Positions 14,851 through 58,025 of a stretch of DNA of 64,000 nucleotides are shown piece by piece. Each line of letters begins with the position of its first letter. Positions within the stretch are counted from its first letter, which is position 1. The DNA comes from Hexactinellida sp. DTS-2022 (lineage: Eukaryota > Porifera > Hexactinellida), in the NCBI GenBank assembly GCA_028753945.1, contig JAPNXP010000001.1:7306501-7370500 (forward strand), read 5' to 3'. The notes under the pieces are model-generated. The model searched no databases and was not told the DNA's origin. It worked only from the letters and a program-made list of their open reading frames with translations. Both the position numbers and the translations under genes were made by a program.

Positions 14851-15925
14851 ATTGTTGAGATGAATAAGTAATATAATGTTATAGCGATGAACAAGCATGA
14901 AAACAATGAAGCTATGAGTATACGCTTCCTGATCAATCCAGGATTATTATATTATGATCATGAAAGTGACTAAGATCCTAAGTAAACTGTCATCACTCTA
15001 TAGTAGAGTCATCGCTTACGAGTTTTGAATGTGTAGCTGAATCTACTTTAACAACAGGCTGGTAATGATCTGAATGCAATCTACAATAGATTCTTTTATC
15101 GGTCAACTTGTGTGAATCATGTCTATCGACGAATCCATGACCTGAGAATTTATTCCAACTTTTTGACATTCTATATAGATGAATATGTCGGTTTGTAGTA
15201 TCAGAGCTGCTAGAAACAATTCTAGATCTGTACCCCATGAACGACTACTCTCCATTCTACTCTTTGCTAAATAGTCCTCAATAGAATGACATCGGTTTTC
15301 TGGAAGTAATTCGTAGTGTGCAAGACAATATTTTGTACATACGTCTCGATACCCGCTTTTCATATTTTCAACCAAAAAGTCCCTGATATCTTTGTGGAAT
15401 CTGTCAGTTCCTGTGATTACGAAAGATAGTGAGCTAAAAATACAGTTCCCATCAGGAGAAATCCTTCGTTCTTTAGATGGTACTAGTTGACGAAGGTCTG
15501 CTCTCTTCTCGGAAGATTGATTTTCAAAGATTATTCCAGAGACAAATGTTAATTGCAACAATTTACATTTCGATTTCTGCCATGACCCATCAACTGGAAT
15601 AAACTCTCCAAATGGATAAAATGTGATATTATCACTGCTTTTGACACCGTTGTTCTCATCTGGGAATGGAAGACTGGTCCTGTGCACATTATCGTTAGAA
15701 GATACATTATTTGCTTTCTTATCACTGTGGTGATCACTTAACATGGTTTTTAGGTCATTCATTTGCGTGGATCTTACCTGTTTTGATGATTTTGTAACGT
15801 TTGTAATAATTTCTAGATCAACACGCTTTATTCTTGACATTGAATATGGTTGAAAGTAACCTTTCTTGGGGTTTTTTCGCCTTTGCCACACTTCCTCAAC
15901 TAGATTTTCATTTCTTTTGGAAGTA

Positions 15926-16110
15926 CAGGTAAACCTCCCAAAGCGGCACCCATCGGGAGAATGTTTTTGTGCCGCTTCTCGGAGGTTGCCGCTACTCGGA
16001 GGTTGCTCGTAAGGTAAAACTCCCAAAGCGGCACCCATCGGGAGAATGATTTTGTGCCGCTTCTCGGAGGTTGCCGCTACTCGGAGGTGCCGCTTTGGGA
16101 GGTTTACCTG
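15926..16110. mobile_element. TA-inserting MITE with internal duplication
   Basis: The ends caggtaaacctcccaaagc and gctttgggaggtttacctg are perfect inverse complements flanked by TA, as for mariner-type elements. The interior repeats aagcggcacccatcgggag twice. It lies in the linker between the DDE and OTU parts of MULE-OTU copy A. Confidence 0.8.
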
Positions 16111-16304
16111 TAATTCTTTTATGCTGCTTAAGAATTCTTGAACTAATTGGCTCAAATGCAAATTCAAATGCCTTTTGTCTTCCTTGAATACCTTGATGAA
16201 CCTTTCTTATGAAGTCTGCCGGTCTTAATTTCACTTCTTTGGATAATATGTTGTTTTTAAGAATTCTCATCCAGTTTTCCACAGTAGCATTTGAGTATCT
16301 AGAA

Positions 16305-25973: not shown

Positions 25974-28882
25974 TTATCTAGGTCTAAATAATACATTCGT
26001 AAATCTACTATAGTCTATAGTTTCTGCGAACCTTCCAAGGCGCATGTCATTCCTAATGATGAACTCGTCCATCAGAGCGTTCCTGTCTACATTGTCCACA
26101 CGCTCCTTGTATACGGCCAAAATTGCCACGCTATTCAGCCTATCTTGGGACATTGTAGTGCGCAGGTAGTTCTTCAGCCTCCGTAGAACCGAAAAGGAAC
26201 GTTCAGCTTCACACGACGTAGAGGGCAGCGTCGGATAGATTCTCAGGAGGTTGGCCAGGTCCGGCAGAATGGTCGGAAGCACTTGGTCTTTACTGGTTGT
26301 CATCGCATCAATGAGCGTTTGCACTGTCAATTCCTGATCCTGTTTGCGCGCAAGCCCGAACCACTGCTCCCTTTGGCTTCGGATGTGGTCCTCACGGATG
26401 TCCCCCTTATAGAGATTGCAAACTGAGTGGATAACTTCATCACCTGTATTTGGGTCAGCTAGCACCTTCTCGATCTGCTCGACCTTCTGCATGCTCGGAG
26501 AGTGGTACCACTTGAAGATACCTTCGACAGCAGCACTGAACACGAACTTGTACAAGTCGGTGTAGTAGGCCTCGATCTGTTCTCCTTGAATCTCGAGATC
26601 CACTTGCTGACTTCTCCTGCGAAGCTCAGCATGCCCGCGGGGAATAGAGGGGAGGTCGATACCCAGATCAATAGCCTCAGCTTTTACTGTGGTATAGAAA
26701 CCAGCAGCGCGCATATCGTCTGAGGCATCTTGCCCGAGAATGGACGCGAGCTGCTCGACATACCTCCTCGTAGCTAGAATGGTCACTGTGCGTCCCTGCA
26801 TAGCAGTGTGCACGGGATGGATAGTTGAAAACAGGCGGTGAAGAGTCCGTACGAGGATGAACATTTTGAACGACTCCATGTTCTGGAGTAGCCCCTGTAG
26901 TACCTTGGCTCTCATCGTGGCAGGCTGATCGCAATCATTGGACATTGCCTCCATCCAGTCGAGGAGCTGCGAGTACAAAGCAATGAAAGTTTCCATCGCC
27001 GGCAGGCGCAACACCCACCTGGTGTCACACAGAGGACGAATGTGCACGTCCTTAGCTGCAGAGTCGTCCTCGTGCACAAGTTTTTTGAAGCTTGCAACTC
27101 GCTTGGCCGAGTCTCGAACGAATACAATGATTGACTGGATCATTTCCATGGTGTTCACGACTGAGGGGAGGCACTTGGTAGCGTCTTGGCAGCAGGATTG
27201 CCGTGGGTATGGGAATCCTGTGGGAATTCCCACAGGATTCCTATATGGGATGGGAATGGGAAATTTTTTTAGCCTATGGGAATTCCCACATGTGGGAATC
27301 CTGTGGGAAACCTATGGGAATTCCCACATGTGGGAATCCTGTGGGAATCCTATGGGAATTCCCATAGGACTATCATTAGAATTTCCACACATTCATATAG
27401 ATCATCATATTACAATAGAGCATAGTGTACATTATGGTTGTAGACAAACCATAATGATTCATGAACACTATATAGGAGAATTCCCATACGTAGGAATCCT
27501 GTGTAAAATTGTAAATGCTATGGGATTTCCCACATGTGGGAATCCTGTGGGAATCCTATGGGAAATCCTGTGGGAATCCTATGGGAATTCCCACAGAAAT
27601 CCTGTGGGAATGGGATGGGAATGGGAATGAAAATTTCCTTCCCACGGCAACCCTGCTTGGCAGACTAGATTCAACTGGTGGCCTGCGCAATAGACGTAAG
27701 CGCTTTCGGGTTCTCTTGCAATACCCTGGCCTGCAGGCCCGAACGCTCGTCTCGCATGTTTGCCGCTCCATCGTAAGCTTGTCCCCTCACTAGGTCGAAT
27801 TCCAAACCCAGCAGCAGTAGAGCATCCTTAACAAGCGCAAGAAGAGTCACGGAATCCGTCTTCTCCGTCTTGTAGAAACCCAAGAAGCTCTCCTCGATCG
27901 TAAAGTTATTGGAAACGTGGCGAACGCATATGTACACCTGCTCCTCAATAGAGAGGTCAGTTGTTTCATCTATGATGATTGCGAAGTAGCCATTGTTCTT
28001 CACATTGGATATCAGCTGACTCATCATTGTATGGTGGAGCAACGTCAGAATCTCATTTTGAATTTGCGGCAATGTCCATGTGTGCTTTGAATTACTCTCC
28101 TCCATCCGATGCATCCATTGCTTGATGTTTTCATTGTATTTCCCAAGGAGGATGAGCAGTTGCTTGAGGTTGCCCTCATCGATCCCTGCATCCCGATGGC
28201 CGCGAAAGGCCTGGCCCTGCCGTGCAAGGTAAAAAACAGCGTCAAAGATGCATCTGAGTGACTCGCGGTTGGAAACCCGTTCTGCATCCCTCTTACGCAT
28301 TAGCGTAGCAGTGATGGTTCTCTGCGAATTGTGGACCAGGAATACTTTTTCGGCTTTCCTGTGCATTTGCGAACGTTCATGTTTCTCGATGAGCTCCTTG
28401 CCTTTAAACCAGCGGGTGAATCCTCTAGCAGCGAACGTGGACCTCCTTACATATTCAATGCTGATAAATCTCGGAAACCGATTCATATTAAGTGCCCACG
28501 CGCACGGCTCACACCAACACACGTGACTAGTGTTGAAGCCACTGACGGCCGTCCTTCCAGGCGTTCTGAAATGTTCGCATGTTATCTTGGACGTGTCCAA
28601 CGGCGGTGATGCTTCCGGAATTCCGCTGACTTGCTCACGCAGTTCCTGTGGGGGCAGTAGGTCCACGTCGTCCTTTGGATCCTCGGCATCCATGGCGTCG
28701 TCAGCGTCATCCTGGGTTTGAGGCTCGAATTCATGAGTAGATCCAATAGGTGAGTGAGGCGGCGATTGAGGAATCTGGCTTGATCCGTCCTTGATGTAGC
28801 TCGTCATTAGGGTTTGCTGCTGCTGTATCTGCAGCCTAGACTTTTTTCTGTCTGACCAGGAAGGCGAGGAAGGGGTTGACAT
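25974..28882 (-). pseudogene. ZMYM1-like hAT transposase, split by a MITE
   Basis: The N-terminal 403-aa frame (28882-27671) has a low-complexity start, a TTF-type zinc finger (HVCWCEPCAWAL, then GFTRWFKGKELIEKHERSQM) and the first catalytic Asp in IIIDETTDLS; GQAYDGAANM holds the second. The C-terminal 419-aa frame (27233-25974) carries QDATKCLPSVVN and the hAT dimerisation region with the Glu in STSCEAERSFSVLRRLKNYL. A frame change near 27715, just before the segment CAGHQLNLVCQ, and the MITE at 27193-27655 break it. Codon use is far more GC-rich than the surroundings. Only two visible lesions suggest recent death. Confidence 0.85.
27193..27655. mobile_element. hAT MITE, CAGGGTTGCCGTGGG family (463 bp)
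   Basis: The ends caggattgccgtgggtatgg and cccacggcaaccctg are flanked by perfect 8-bp duplications cttggcag (27185-27192, 27656-27663). The interior is an array of gtgggaatcctgtgggaa and tatgggaattccca motifs on both sides of an AT-rich core that matches 34975-35020 of the autonomous-type element. Confidence 0.95.
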
Positions 28883-29440
28883 AAGTATAAAAACACTTAT
28901 ATAAACTAAAGATCAAAATCAATGCATTTGAGTTGTTGTTAAATGTTGAGCATAACTGTAGTATATGTATTACAGGTGCAGGACAATCGCTCAAAAGGTG
29001 GTGCGGCAGAATATGCCGCTTGGCATACAATATAATAAAAAGGCTCCAGCAACACAGGACTATTATAGAAGTGGTACGGCGCTCGCCGTACCTGTCGAAC
29101 CGTATATGTCGCCTAATTATATATTACCTAGATTGCGAACGACTATATTATAGTATACCAAATGACTTGGGACCCGATTTCAATTGGAAAGACTGGAAAG
29201 TTTTCACAGTAACGTTTATGACTCATTTGACTGGCTGCAAGTTGTTATACATTGATTCTATCCACTACCTAATGTCTCTAGTTTGCGGAAGTTAGGTTCG
29301 TGCCATGTTGGCACCCCCATGACCAAACTCGAAGTTTACGCCCCTGAGTTAGGCCTACCGTAGGAATTATTATTAGCTATCTCTTTATCATCAATTAGTC
29401 ACATAATCATAGGTACTTTAGACCTTTAATTTAGGATATA

Positions 29441-29870: not shown

Positions 29871-30039
29871 AAATTGAGCAATGTTTGTAAATCCGTGAAG
29901 ATATCTTGCATTTGATTGGCCCAATTCAACCCCACTGAAAAGATAATATATACATATTCTTCGAATATGCATGGTGTTATGAGATGAGGCCACTGCTCAG
30001 TATGAAGACTAGCCGCTATCTTCGACCTCATCCCATAGG

Positions 30040-30240
30040 AATGTTACGTGTGTGGTTTCGTCCCATTCCAGGGACTCATCAGGAGGGTAACCCTCGACCA
30101 CCTTTGCCTGACCGGCCGCGGTCGGCATCTGTTACCATCCCGTACTGCCGGCCTGTGAATACTCACTACCCGTGAGTCTGCTCGTACTGACAACGTATGG
30201 CCTTTCCCAAGGGCTATACTCCTGAGGGCCTCAGGCAATG
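30040..30240 (-). mobile_element. GC-rich ribozyme-bearing retroelement fragment
   Basis: A sharp GC-rich island in AT-rich DNA. On the minus strand it begins with gcctgaggccctcagg, contains the self-complementary gaccgcggccggtc, and leads into a hammerhead ribozyme. It encodes no convincing protein. Such islands occur as SINE-like ribozyme retroposons, retrozymes or Penelope-like element ends in animals; which of these applies cannot be told from one copy. Confidence 0.45.
30053..30102 (-). ncRNA. Type I hammerhead ribozyme
   Basis: The minus strand reads GGTGGTC, GAGGG-TTA-CCCTC, CTGATGA, GTCCC-TGGAAT-GGGAC, GAAA, CCAC. All core nucleotides of the hammerhead are present: CUGAUGA between stems I and II and GAAA between stems II and III. 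The three stems pair perfectly: stem I GAGGG/CCCTC with a 3-nt loop, stem II GTCCC/GGGAC with a 6-nt loop, stem III GTGGT/ACCAC. The predicted cleavage is after GUC, between 30096 and 30095. Short stem I and stem II loops resemble metazoan retroposon hammerheads. Sequence and fold are seen directly; activity is inferred. Confidence 0.88.
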
Positions 30241-30404
30241 TCCATAACAATGGTATAACAGAAAATAGACAAAATGTAATGTGTTCCGTCAGAAAATTTA
30301 CGGGAAGAGTTGTCTAGTTTAACATTATTTTTTTGGTCTGGTGGATCTTTTAAGTGGAGTATGCTGTTTTTCAGGAAACATTCTAAAATAATATTAAGAA
30401 TCAA

Positions 30405-54561: not shown

Positions 54562-57500
54562 TGTCACGATATATTTGGTCCGTGCTAATTTTGGTCCGGC
54601 CGGACCAAATATATCAGGCAAATTTGGTCCGCCCGGACCGATTATTCCAGAGGACCAAATATTTCAGCCATTTTTGGTCCGGGATTATCTTTCGGTCCGC
54701 CCGGACCAAATATTTCAATCGTTTTTGGTCCGGGGTTTTCTTTTGGTCCGGCCGGACCAAATATATCAGACAAATTTGGTCCGGGGTTAGCTTTTTGGGC
54801 TAATTTTCGTTTGCTAATTCTACAGTGGCTGACTGATCATTTTGGGTTTAATTTTGGTTTGCAAATTAGATATTTGCTCACTGTTCTAATAGTACATATT
54901 TTAATGATTTCAGTCTTCTAATTCAAATGACGTTGCAAAGTTCTAAGAAGTGGTCTGGCCCAACTAACCGAACATGCGTATATGCATTTATATTTATTTA
55001 ATTAAGTCGCACACAAAAGTACTAATGTTTGTGACTATAAAATAGAATGTTCTGATAATAGACTAACTAACAATAAATTCTACTCTTCGACAATACATGT
55101 CCCTACGCTACCAATGTCAAATGATGGCTTTTTAGTAAACTCGAGTTCTGTAACTGGTTCAAAGTGATTCTTTTGATTGACAAGATAAATTGCAAAGTCA
55201 GTGGTTGAACTGTCACGATAAATACTTGTAGTGTATTTATGCCAAATTACACTTGAGGTTTCTCTAATATTACTGTCGATGGCAACTAGAATATTGATGT
55301 CAAACAAATATGCCGCAGCCATAATTTCACAATCTGTACCCCAAGTATTCTGGATGGCCATGGTTGATGATTCAAGGTAATTTTCGATACAGCTAATATC
55401 CCTTTGTGGAAATTTATTCCTAATATATTCCCAACATTTCGCACGTCCAGCCCCCAGCATAAAATTGCAGATTAACTCTCGAACTTGTTTGTGGCATTTC
55501 TGCGATCCAGTTATTGAATATGAAAAGGTTCTGAATAAGCAATTTCCATCAGGAACGATAGATTTTGTTTTTGCTGGAATGTAATAACGTAATATTGAAT
55601 CAGTCATTTCAATATGTTGCCTGCTAATACCGACATATACAAGCTTGAGTTGGTTACAGATTCTCTTTTGGTCTTGGAAATTTATTGGCAGATATTTTTC
55701 GTAAGAAATGCATTCCAATGGTATCCTCACTTTAAGTTCAGTTTCATTAAACTCCCTCTAAATAATACAGGGTATATGAATAAGAATAGTTAATACAATA
55801 TTATAAATACGCAAAGACCTAGATTATTACCTCATTGGAAACTTCTTCATTGTCTTTATTGGTACAGTTAAAATCTATTTTGTCCTGTGAATGCCAGGTC
55901 TTTAGATGTGCACCATTTATTCTTTCGATAATCTAGAGATTAATGTCTTATAATATAGTTTCAATATCATTGTAGCAAATAATTACGAAGCAATACTGAC
56001 CTTTGAGCCGTTATGCTCTTGTAATTTATATAGCCCCTTTCCAAGCGATTTGGTTATTACAAAAGGACCTTCCCAACGAAATAGCAGGCTTCCTCCACGC
56101 TTTCGTTTCCTAAGAAAAATTTTCTTAAGAACATTGGATCCTACTTTCAATGAAGATCCCGCTCCATGCTTTGAATCATAATCTTTCGATTGTTTATCTT
56201 GGACTTTTGCGATATTCTTCATGATATTTGTGTGCATATGTTCACGCTGAATTGCTAATATATCAAAATCTGAGCTCTCTGGAAGAACATTGTCATTTAG
56301 TTTGTTTACCGGATCACTTTTATCTGTATTTGCATCAATAGGGAGTCTGGCTACTCTACCATACATAGCCTGAAATGGTGTGTATTTAGTGGAATCCTGG
56401 ACAGAAGTATTATAAGCGTATACGATTTCTGAGATATTAATATCCCAGGAAGCTTTATTATCTTGGGAAAATTTGGCAATAGAATTTTTTAGTGTTTGAT
56501 TAAATCTCTCATCTAAACCATTAGCCTGTGGGTGGTAAGCTGTAGTTAGCCTATGCTCAATCCTCATCTGTTTCTCAAATTCTTTATTCACATTGTTATT
56601 GAATTCTCTTCCTTGGTCTGTAGTTATCACCACAGGTAAACCCAGTATTAAGAATATCTAGAAATTGAAATGTGAAAAAATACAACTAAATTAAGAATAA
56701 ATATGATGAATATTACTTCTCTTAAGGATGAAACCACATTGATTGCTTCTTTTGTAGGTAATGCCTTGGCCCATCCATATTTTGTGAAATAGTCTGTCAT
56801 CGTTAGTATGAAACGGTTGCCATTTTCTGTAGTTGGAGAAATTGGCCCAACAAAATCTACGCCAACATGAAACATCGGCGATTTTACAGGAATGGGATAT
56901 AGCTGAGGTCTATCTAGAGTGAGCTTGGGGTTCATATGTTGGCACAGATCGCAGAAGTCTACCTAAGTTTATTATACATATGATAAATTAAATATTATGA
57001 CAACTTACATAAGTATGTACATACCTTCTCTTTAATTTGCTGCATCATACCTTTCCAGTAGAATCGTTCAGATACTTTTTTTCTTGTCTTTGTCACTCCA
57101 AAGTGGCCAGAAATAGGATCATTATGACAAGCATCTAATATTTTCATCTGATCTTCGGGAGTCGTTATTACTTTTACACGTCTATCTTTCCTTTGCACAT
57201 ATACTTGGCCCTCCTCAAAGATCAGTTTGGAAGCACGACGCCTTATTGATCTCTTTAGTTTGACTTCAATATTCGGGGGGTATACCTTTTTTATGAGCAA
57301 AGTCCAACAAAGAGCAATTGTTGTTGTCATCAGAAATTGATTCTTCTTCCGACAATTTCTCTGAGCGATCACACTCTTCCAATACAGGAAAAGACATTGA
57401 ATATAATATATATATATAATATGTTTAATATAATATATATTGCTAATTAGCTAAACGTTAGAAGATAATAAACCGACTTTAACAAATTCGGATGCAGAAT

Positions 57501-58025
57501 AATTAATTCAATAAATAATATAATCAATTTACAAAGTATCACGTAAATATACCAATTTTGTCTATGTACATACAAAGTTACAAACCCAGTGACTCTTGCA
57601 AGGATTCTTATATTCTGAAATATTTGATCCAGCCGGATCAAAAGTTAACCCCGGACCAAATTTGTCTGATATATTTGGTCCGGCCGGACCAAAAGAAAAC
57701 CCCGGACCAAAAACGATTGAAATATTTGGTCCGGGCGGACCGAAAGATAATCCCGGACCAAAAATGGCTGAAATATTTGGTCCTCTGGAATAATCGGTCC
57801 GGGCGGACCAAATTTGTTTGATATATTTGGTCCGACCGGACCAAAAGATAACCCCGGACCAAAAACGATAAAAATATTTGGTCCGGCCGGACCAAAAGAT
57901 AATCCCGGACCAAAAATAGCTGAAATATTTGGTCCTCTGAAATATTTGGTCCGGCCGGACCAAATTTGCCTGATATATTTGGTCCGGCCGGACCAAAATT
58001 AGCACGGACCAAATATATCGTGACA
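54562..58025 (-). mobile_element. Ginger1 DNA transposon carrying an OTU domain
   Basis: The ends tgtcacgatatatttggtcc and ggaccaaatatatcgtgaca are perfect inverse complements, flanked by a 4-bp duplication tacc (54558-54561, 58026-58029). The left TIR is about 235 bp. The right TIR is about 410 bp because an internal block of about 185 bp is duplicated. Both are built from ccggaccaaa and tgaaatatttggtcc iterations. Ginger1 elements are known for Gypsy-like integrase transposases, TIRs of 40-270 bp, 4-bp TSDs and OTU or Ulp1 add-ons, all of which fit. There is no gag, protease or reverse transcriptase. Confidence 0.88.
55080..57408 (-). CDS. Ginger1 integrase-like transposase with C-terminal OTU domain
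   Basis: Five segments separated by short GT-AG introns of 62, 59, 68 and 73 bp: up to 57025; 56962-56717; 56657-56001; 55932-55831; 55757-55080. Domains in order: an acidic N terminus; KVYPPNIEVKLKRSIRRRAS (YPYY-like region); a zinc finger with HNDPISGHFG and FCDLCQ; the DDE core with VDFVGP, ITTDQGREFNN and HPQANGLDERFN; the GPF module (RWEGPFVITKSLGKGLYKLQ); a linker; then OTU with VPDGNCLFRTFSYSITG, NTWGTDCEIMAAAYLF and NHFEPVTE. The extreme N terminus (from about 57408) is in a different frame from what follows, so integrity there is uncertain; the rest appears open. An LTR-retroelement origin was rejected on the termini and missing genes. Confidence 0.8.

Follow-up and report, generated by a model that had tools for sequence, protein, structure and literature searches.

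Type III hammerhead ribozymes in an LTR retrotransposon family of a hexactinellid sponge, with a palindromic hairpin at the expected primer binding site

The window ribozyme and its solo LTR

The window analysed here, a 64,000-nucleotide stretch of contig JAPNXP010000001.1 of Hexactinellida sp. DTS-2022, carries on its minus strand a hammerhead ribozyme that lies inside a solo LTR, whose parts are as follows.

29971..29974, no strand: target-site duplication (TSD) CCAT (minus-strand reading), by the LTR 3' end; from sequence
29975..30249, minus strand: solo LTR of the retrozyme, 275 bp, TGTTATG...CATAACA; from the TSD and conservation among loci
29975..29980, minus strand: box 2, ATAACA, the LTR 3' end, which runs on into the hairpin in full copies; from the box 1/box 2 match
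29975..30054, minus strand: structured tail, 80 nt, from 3' of the ribozyme core to the LTR end; conserved among copies
30042..30047, minus strand: box 1, GTAACA, a near-repeat of the LTR end; from the box 1/box 2 match
30050..30103, minus strand: type III hammerhead ribozyme, predicted cleavage GUC/G at 30096/30095; RF00008, 58.2 bits, and covariation in 38 copies
30243..30249, minus strand: LTR 5' end (TGTTATG), which repeats the LTR 3' end in inverted orientation; from sequence
30250..30253, no strand: TSD CCAT (minus-strand reading), by the LTR 5' end; from sequence

The minus-strand hammerhead string reported in a preliminary description of this DNA was found where that description placed it, and it is a complete hammerhead: a cmscan search of Rfam 15 matched RF00008 (Hammerhead_3) at 30050-30103 (-) with 58.2 bits (gathering score 48.5) and an E value of 2.3e-10. 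The match spans the full model (1-54/54) and is the only one at gathering level in the window. Stem I ends in the loop UUA and stem II in a loop of six bases; stem III (GUGG/CCAC) is open, which makes the ribozyme type III and rules out the type I assignment first given to it. The UUA and UGAAAU-like loops agree with the Rfam Hammerhead_3 consensus. Cleavage is predicted at GUC/G between 30096 and 30095, in agreement with the site originally placed at the complement of 30095. The argument that the motif is beyond chance is borne out by a 28-nt half-motif, which with up to three mismatches occurs 342 times in the genome and not once as its reversed control, and by stem covariation (see below). 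By these sequence measures the window ribozyme is real.

By its TG...CA ends and TSDs, and by the polypurine tract (PPT) and LTR-internal-LTR copies found elsewhere, the window element is a solo LTR of a non-autonomous LTR retrotransposon. The stretch conserved between loci begins near 29975 and ends near 30249-30256. The GC-rich island first reported at 30040-30240 is real, the LTR being 54% GC, but its limits are 29975-30249; 30 of the 32 2-kb bins across the window have 29-44% GC. The 80-nt tail is predicted to fold as a long stem, and the whole LTR with its flanks folds with a z of -2.31, which 2 of 200 shuffles equal. Boxes 1 and 2 match at a mean of 5.34 of 6 positions against 4.62 when permuted (0/5000 as high among 35 copies, whose relatedness may inflate the result). 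Their interpretation as the direct repeats of a TPRT tail was rejected because LTR ends fit better, and their likeness probably reflects that both complement the LTR start.

None of the stop-to-stop ORFs that overlap the LTR reaches 150 aa, and ARAGORN found no tRNA genes or tRNA-like heads in the eight loci scanned. A SINE was rejected on this ARAGORN result, which bears on tRNA-type heads only, and on the 4-bp TSDs, where a SINE would have LINE-type ones. The earlier view of an undescribed, multicopy, non-coding element survives in that no description of it was found, and its SINE-like part gives way to LTR ends and 4-bp TSDs. A Penelope-like host, also considered at that stage, is contradicted by the type III ribozyme, the LTR-internal-LTR plan and the 4-bp TSDs; Penelope-like elements have a minimal type I hammerhead, pseudo-LTRs and an RT/GIY-YIG ORF. 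A metazoan non-LTR retrozyme was likewise rejected, on the type III ribozyme, the presence of LTR, PPT and TSD, and the GC content (50-54% in the window LTR and six composites).

Elsewhere in the window, hAT-like transposon pieces with DUF4371 and hAT dimerisation domains lie at 25974-28912 (-) and are adjoined by tandem repeats of the CCCACATGTGGGAAT type. Integrase zinc-binding and rve_3 domains are found at 55080-57450 (-) with an OTU protease-like frame adjoining them, a second OTU frame occupies 15103-16206 (-), and tandem arrays of 51-bp period with GGTCCGGCCGGACC palindromes lie at 54589-54795 and 57614-57998. The genome contains a fibrillar collagen gene (C-terminal domain at 105 bits in a 591-aa frame, with Gly-X-Y triplet runs of 8, 25, 45 and 38) and a genome search found no chlorophyll a/b proteins, indicating that the host is an animal.

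Genomic copies, the hairpin and inverted insertions

In the window's own assembly (112 Mb, 18 contigs), a DNA search with 30040-30240 gave at least 52 matches (best 40 of 386 candidates scored) and an RF00008 search at least 68, of which 64 are above the cut-off (best 68 of 12319 candidates scored); the RF00008 search of 14 control genomes gave none. The DNA, RF00008 and half-motif searches yield many genome-wide relatives, for which the preliminary description had suggested a search, and a dimeric relative exists in the head-to-tail dimer L049. Matches from the DNA and RF00008 searches combined are present on all 18 contigs, which makes contamination unlikely. We note that several ribozyme copies of near-equal score lie on one strand at 13.0-13.4 Mb of C1, where L067 and L068 have about 1.1 kb in common at 88%; there the LTR may be part of a larger repeat.

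Core conservation is by construction in the 39 distinct ribozymes that a script found among the fetched loci, since it accepted only sequences with CTGATGA and GAAAC; the count leaves out one chance match and two ribozymes truncated by the end of a locus. Stem pairs were not selected for, and in an alignment of 38 distinct copies (one with a longer loop omitted) 97.7% of stem cells are paired. Double changes occur at five stem pairs, in 22 cells, where shuffling gave 5.6 on average and none of 500 shuffles was as high.

Full copies have the plan LTR, short non-coding region, PPT, LTR, with 4-bp TSDs. L041 is a full element of 834 bp with LTRs of 330 bp, an internal region of 174 bp and the TSD TACT, and L048 (TSD CTAC) and L040 (TSD ATAG) are also LTR-internal-LTR; the two LTRs are 99.7% identical in L041, 97.4% in L040 and 97.8% over 231 bp in L048. 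All seven composites with both ends (L039, L040, L041, L048, L050, L053 and L073) have 4-bp TSDs. Both end motifs were recognised in 42 copies, and 14 of these, one LTR-LTR dimer and 13 solo LTRs, are flanked by an exact 4-bp TSD. The 42 include copies that are parts of composites, with element sequence instead of genomic DNA on one side, and the LTR start motifs used for recognition had in part been derived from copies with flanking TSDs. At its 3' border with the LTR the internal region has a purine tract, which reads AAAAAGGGAAGGTGA in L041 (followed by TGTTAT) and AAAGGGAAGGTGA in L039 (followed by TGTGAC); the motif GGTTGTGTGGARGNCTAA from the 3' end of the region, with up to two mismatches, occurs at 11 places against 13 for the reversed control. 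Among the features of LTR retrozymes, the family has a type III hammerhead inside its LTRs, two LTRs around a non-coding internal region with a 4-bp TSD (L041, L048 and L040), and a PPT and LTR 5' end common to Ty3/Gypsy; in place of the tRNA-Met primer binding site (PBS) there is a palindrome. A TGG-type start is absent from the internal regions examined, which were judged by that start alone, and an atypical tRNA site is possible.

The palindrome lies at the expected PBS start, and the LTR end continues into it, for example as CATAACATAATAACT...AGTTATTATGTTATG. By script the hairpin was found at nine loci (14 rows) with folding energies of -16.1 to -38.5 kcal/mol. In eight copies (two of them with identical arms; L003 omitted) the 15-bp arms are complementary at 119 of 120 positions, whereas exchanged arms match at a mean of 11.3 of 15, and at 8 of the 15 pair positions more than one type of pair occurs. 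The hairpin pattern gave 51 rows genome-wide against 5 for its reversed control, and sorting by eye placed 36 of these rows in 17 hairpins of the retrozyme family, some of them not fetched. Twelve of the other 15 rows are an unrelated dispersed repeat on 10 contigs that begins CTCATTTCATGAAAT and has arms CATTTCATGAAAT...TTCATGAAATG. No complement of the retrozyme PBS region was found within the LTR of four retrozymes (best 6-7 nt, the shuffle level). The PBS appears to have been replaced by this covarying palindromic hairpin, apparently a new feature.

The L041 monomer, folded as a circle of 504 nt, is predicted at -205 kcal/mol with 67% of bases paired (without a shuffle control). The hairpin has a pair probability of at least 0.81 in this fold from the fifth pair inwards, that is, approximately from the LTR end, and the four outermost pairs (0.02-0.37) are mostly unformed. 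Because the arms include the last LTR bases and these outer pairs are mostly unformed, the exact primer end is not obvious. We note that the 5' LTR tail is replaced in L040, L048 and L050 and joins the hairpin right arm only; the replacement is GGATAGCTTCTCACAAAT in L040 and L048, and the 3' LTRs of these two keep the usual tail.

At seven places (L003, L039, L053, L071, L072, L073 and L074) an inverted LTR tail follows directly on the LTR tail and hairpin; this inverted tail is kept only in part in L071 and L072 and runs on into an internal region in L074. L039 is a 2184-bp array, and L050 consists of two half-elements tail to tail, centred on the start of the internal region. All four inverted units with both outer ends have TSDs (CTAT in L039, ATAT in L050, CGTA in L053 and ATAC in L073), which implies that the units were made before insertion and inserted whole, apparently also a new feature. 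Their arms are 84.0% identical in L050, 98.4% in L053 and 87.5% in L073; the lower values may reflect a switch between copies or a greater age of the insertions.

Gypsy elements as candidate helpers

Gypsy RNase H matches are plentiful in the genome (best 150 of 343 candidates scored), with some open frames of more than 1000 aa; a Copia helper was rejected, the single RVT_2 match containing a stop. The retrozyme PPT and LTR-start pattern with two mismatches has 209 matches against 179 for the reversed control, a weak signal alone. When 99 listed pattern matches were compared with 150 Gypsy places, 10 matches lay 1.6-1.9 kb downstream of a Gypsy RNase H on the same strand, and the other three arrangements occurred 1, 0 and 0 times. 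End pieces of nine Gypsy elements were taken, including six of the ten co-located ones, which were chosen for matching the retrozyme PPT/LTR start. Both LTRs were found in four of these six; the stretches fetched for C12 and C18 gave the 3' LTR only, TGTTATGAG...CTCTTAACA, and the L024 retrozyme also starts TGTTATGAG.

The four Gypsies with both LTRs have LTRs of 153-187 bp and 4-bp TSDs (4/4). Each PBS starts 1-2 nt past the LTR and is perfectly complementary to its own LTR, over 11, 11, 12 and 14 nt, at LTR position 111-113; shuffled PBSs did as well in 2, 5, 0 and 0 of 1000 cases. Complementarity between LTR and PBS is the signature of Tf1-type self-priming, a process described for Tf1 and its relatives (PMC6934838, PMC5445492), and the four Gypsies may prime in a Tf1-like manner, using RNA of their own LTRs. 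No self-LTR complement was found for the TTGG-type PBSs of two Gypsies from other families. Gypsy C2:4535503 was rejected as a helper for its 5-bp TSD, TTGGCGACG PBS and TGTAG start, although the retrozyme LTR end ATAACA recurs in it. Gypsy C1:8615704 was rejected for its TATAG...CTATA ends and its tRNA-like PBS, TTGGTAGCAGAG, although it has a 4-bp TSD, which is thus not peculiar to the PPT-matching Gypsies. Gypsy C1:11052310 has no LTR pair within the stretches taken.

Proposed mechanism, alternatives and known relatives

The ribozyme, LTRs, TSDs, PPT, hairpin covariation, inverted insertions and Gypsy PBS complementarity are read from the DNA itself, and from them we infer the following cycle. 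A full retrozyme copy would be transcribed, and the type III hammerhead in each LTR would cut the RNA in vivo into monomers of unit length, 504 nt in the case of L041; as has been suggested for plants, a host ligase may close these monomers into circles. Proteins of the putatively self-priming Ty3/Gypsy clade could then reverse-transcribe and integrate the retrozyme RNA, a Gypsy helper being proposed because the PPT/LTR start and the 4-bp TSD are common to both. Trimmed or circular RNA would be without the self-primer 5' end, and the retrozyme would therefore carry the PBS complement in cis: the palindromic hairpin starts at the LTR end, and its right arm could pair with the PBS in self-primer geometry, the complement lying directly 3' of the PBS and the primer strand extending beyond the LTR end in the duplex. 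Tf1-type self-priming involves an RNase H cut, and a cut by the helper RNase H at the foot of the right arm would free the primer. Occasional extension of the hairpin would give snap-back products that are inserted whole; inverted units made before insertion would be expected if the hairpin end extends on its own template. In this proposal the hairpin would act as a cis-borne self-primer that suits RNA trimmed by the ribozyme or closed into a circle, and we give a probability of roughly 0.7 to the joint explanation of an LTR retrozyme moved by Gypsy proteins and primed from this hairpin. The absence of the left arm from the 5' LTR tail in L040, L048 and L050 counts against this explanation, and the hairpin could alternatively serve protein binding or dimerisation.

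A plain LTR retrozyme or TRIM with an unrecognised tRNA or small RNA primer, a hairpin that serves as packaging or dimer-initiation site, and inverted units made by template switching, is an unlikely explanation but one that deserves weight. The observed plan, size and TSDs suit TRIMs and plant retrozymes; moreover, bivalve TRIMs are described, in the text available, as likewise without a clear PBS and with inverted repeats, the Conserved Hairpin Site of fungal GalEa elements is placed at the PBS position with its mechanism unknown, and the 87.5% identity of the L073 arms would fit age or a switch between different copies. Such an element would not lead one to expect a covarying hairpin that begins at the LTR end, the proper place of a PBS, nor four PPT-sharing Gypsies with PBSs complementary to their own LTR beside two with TTGG-type PBSs that differ in their PPT/LTR starts. 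It is very improbable that a retrotransposon captured a viroid-like or satellite circular RNA whose integrated copies are the present loci: the Rfam Hammerhead_3 seed is made up largely of viroid and virusoid sequences, and the type III fold and loops agree with its consensus, but LTR ends and PPT lie within the repeated unit, the TSDs are integrase-like, and the genomic copies group into related families. Least probable of all is the known type I animal non-LTR retrozyme, moved by Penelope-like or LINE machinery, which the type III ribozyme, the LTRs, the PPT and the 4-bp TSDs contradict; the animal host and the head-to-tail dimer L049 would suit it, but the TSD-flanked copies are mostly solo LTRs and not tandem arrays.

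The following comparisons hold for the accessible portions of the papers cited. Plant LTR retrozymes have type III hammerheads in their LTRs, 4-bp TSDs, a tRNA-Met PBS and a PPT (PMC4918200, Cervera 2016). The sponge family resembles them in the type III hammerhead in the LTRs (theirs about 300-400 bp), the non-coding internal region, the 4-bp TSD, the PPT, the solo LTRs and a 5' box common to Ty3-gypsy, and differs in its animal host, its shorter internal region (174 bp in L041 versus about 300-600), its palindromic hairpin in place of the tRNA-Met PBS, and its inverted insertions. Animal hammerheads are mostly type I and occur in non-LTR retrozymes and Penelope-like elements (PMC7229834, PMC7761336); initiation of reverse transcription in the latter is treated in PMC11167929. 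Metazoan non-LTR retrozymes (Cervera and de la Pena 2020, PMC7229834) are, like the present elements, small, non-coding and hammerhead-bearing, but they are type I, tandem and below 50% GC, and are described without LTR, PBS or PPT. In animals, type III motifs with an extended architecture of another kind have been described in HDV-like agents, termites and flies (PMC7936874).

Like Tf1-type elements, the retrozyme would take its primer from its own RNA, and the Gypsies found here have 11-14 nt of LTR-PBS complementarity (PMC6934838, PMC5445492); unlike in those elements, the retrozyme has the complement in a hairpin immediately 3' of the PBS and not at the transcript 5' end. The Conserved Hairpin Site of the fungal GalEa Copia elements is also a hairpin directly after the 5' LTR, in the place of the PBS, but it belongs to Copia elements of fungi and has 9-bp arms with a fixed mismatch and no ribozyme (PMC5445492), whereas the retrozyme arms are near-perfect palindromes of about 15 bp. 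The TRIMs Helenus (PMC10886601) and ta-TRIM (PMC4558846) are likewise short and non-coding with LTRs, and have TSDs of 4 bp (in animal Helenus, and mostly in ta-TRIM); they differ in a tRNA-type PBS, and their accessible text mentions no ribozyme. Our literature search, to which subscription journals largely did not belong so that absence is unproven, found no animal LTR retrozyme or self-priming retrozyme.

We see an even chance that these are animal LTR retrozymes with viroid-type hammerheads in which the helper's self-primer has moved from the 5' end to a cis hairpin by the PBS, a new start of reverse transcription from which the palindromic insertions would follow. Type III hammerheads connect viroids, satellite RNAs and plant retrozymes, and a large animal LTR-retrozyme family would mean that this plan reaches beyond plants or that it had two origins. 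The hairpin offers a testable answer to how a ribozyme-processed, possibly circular RNA may be primed by the machinery of LTR elements.
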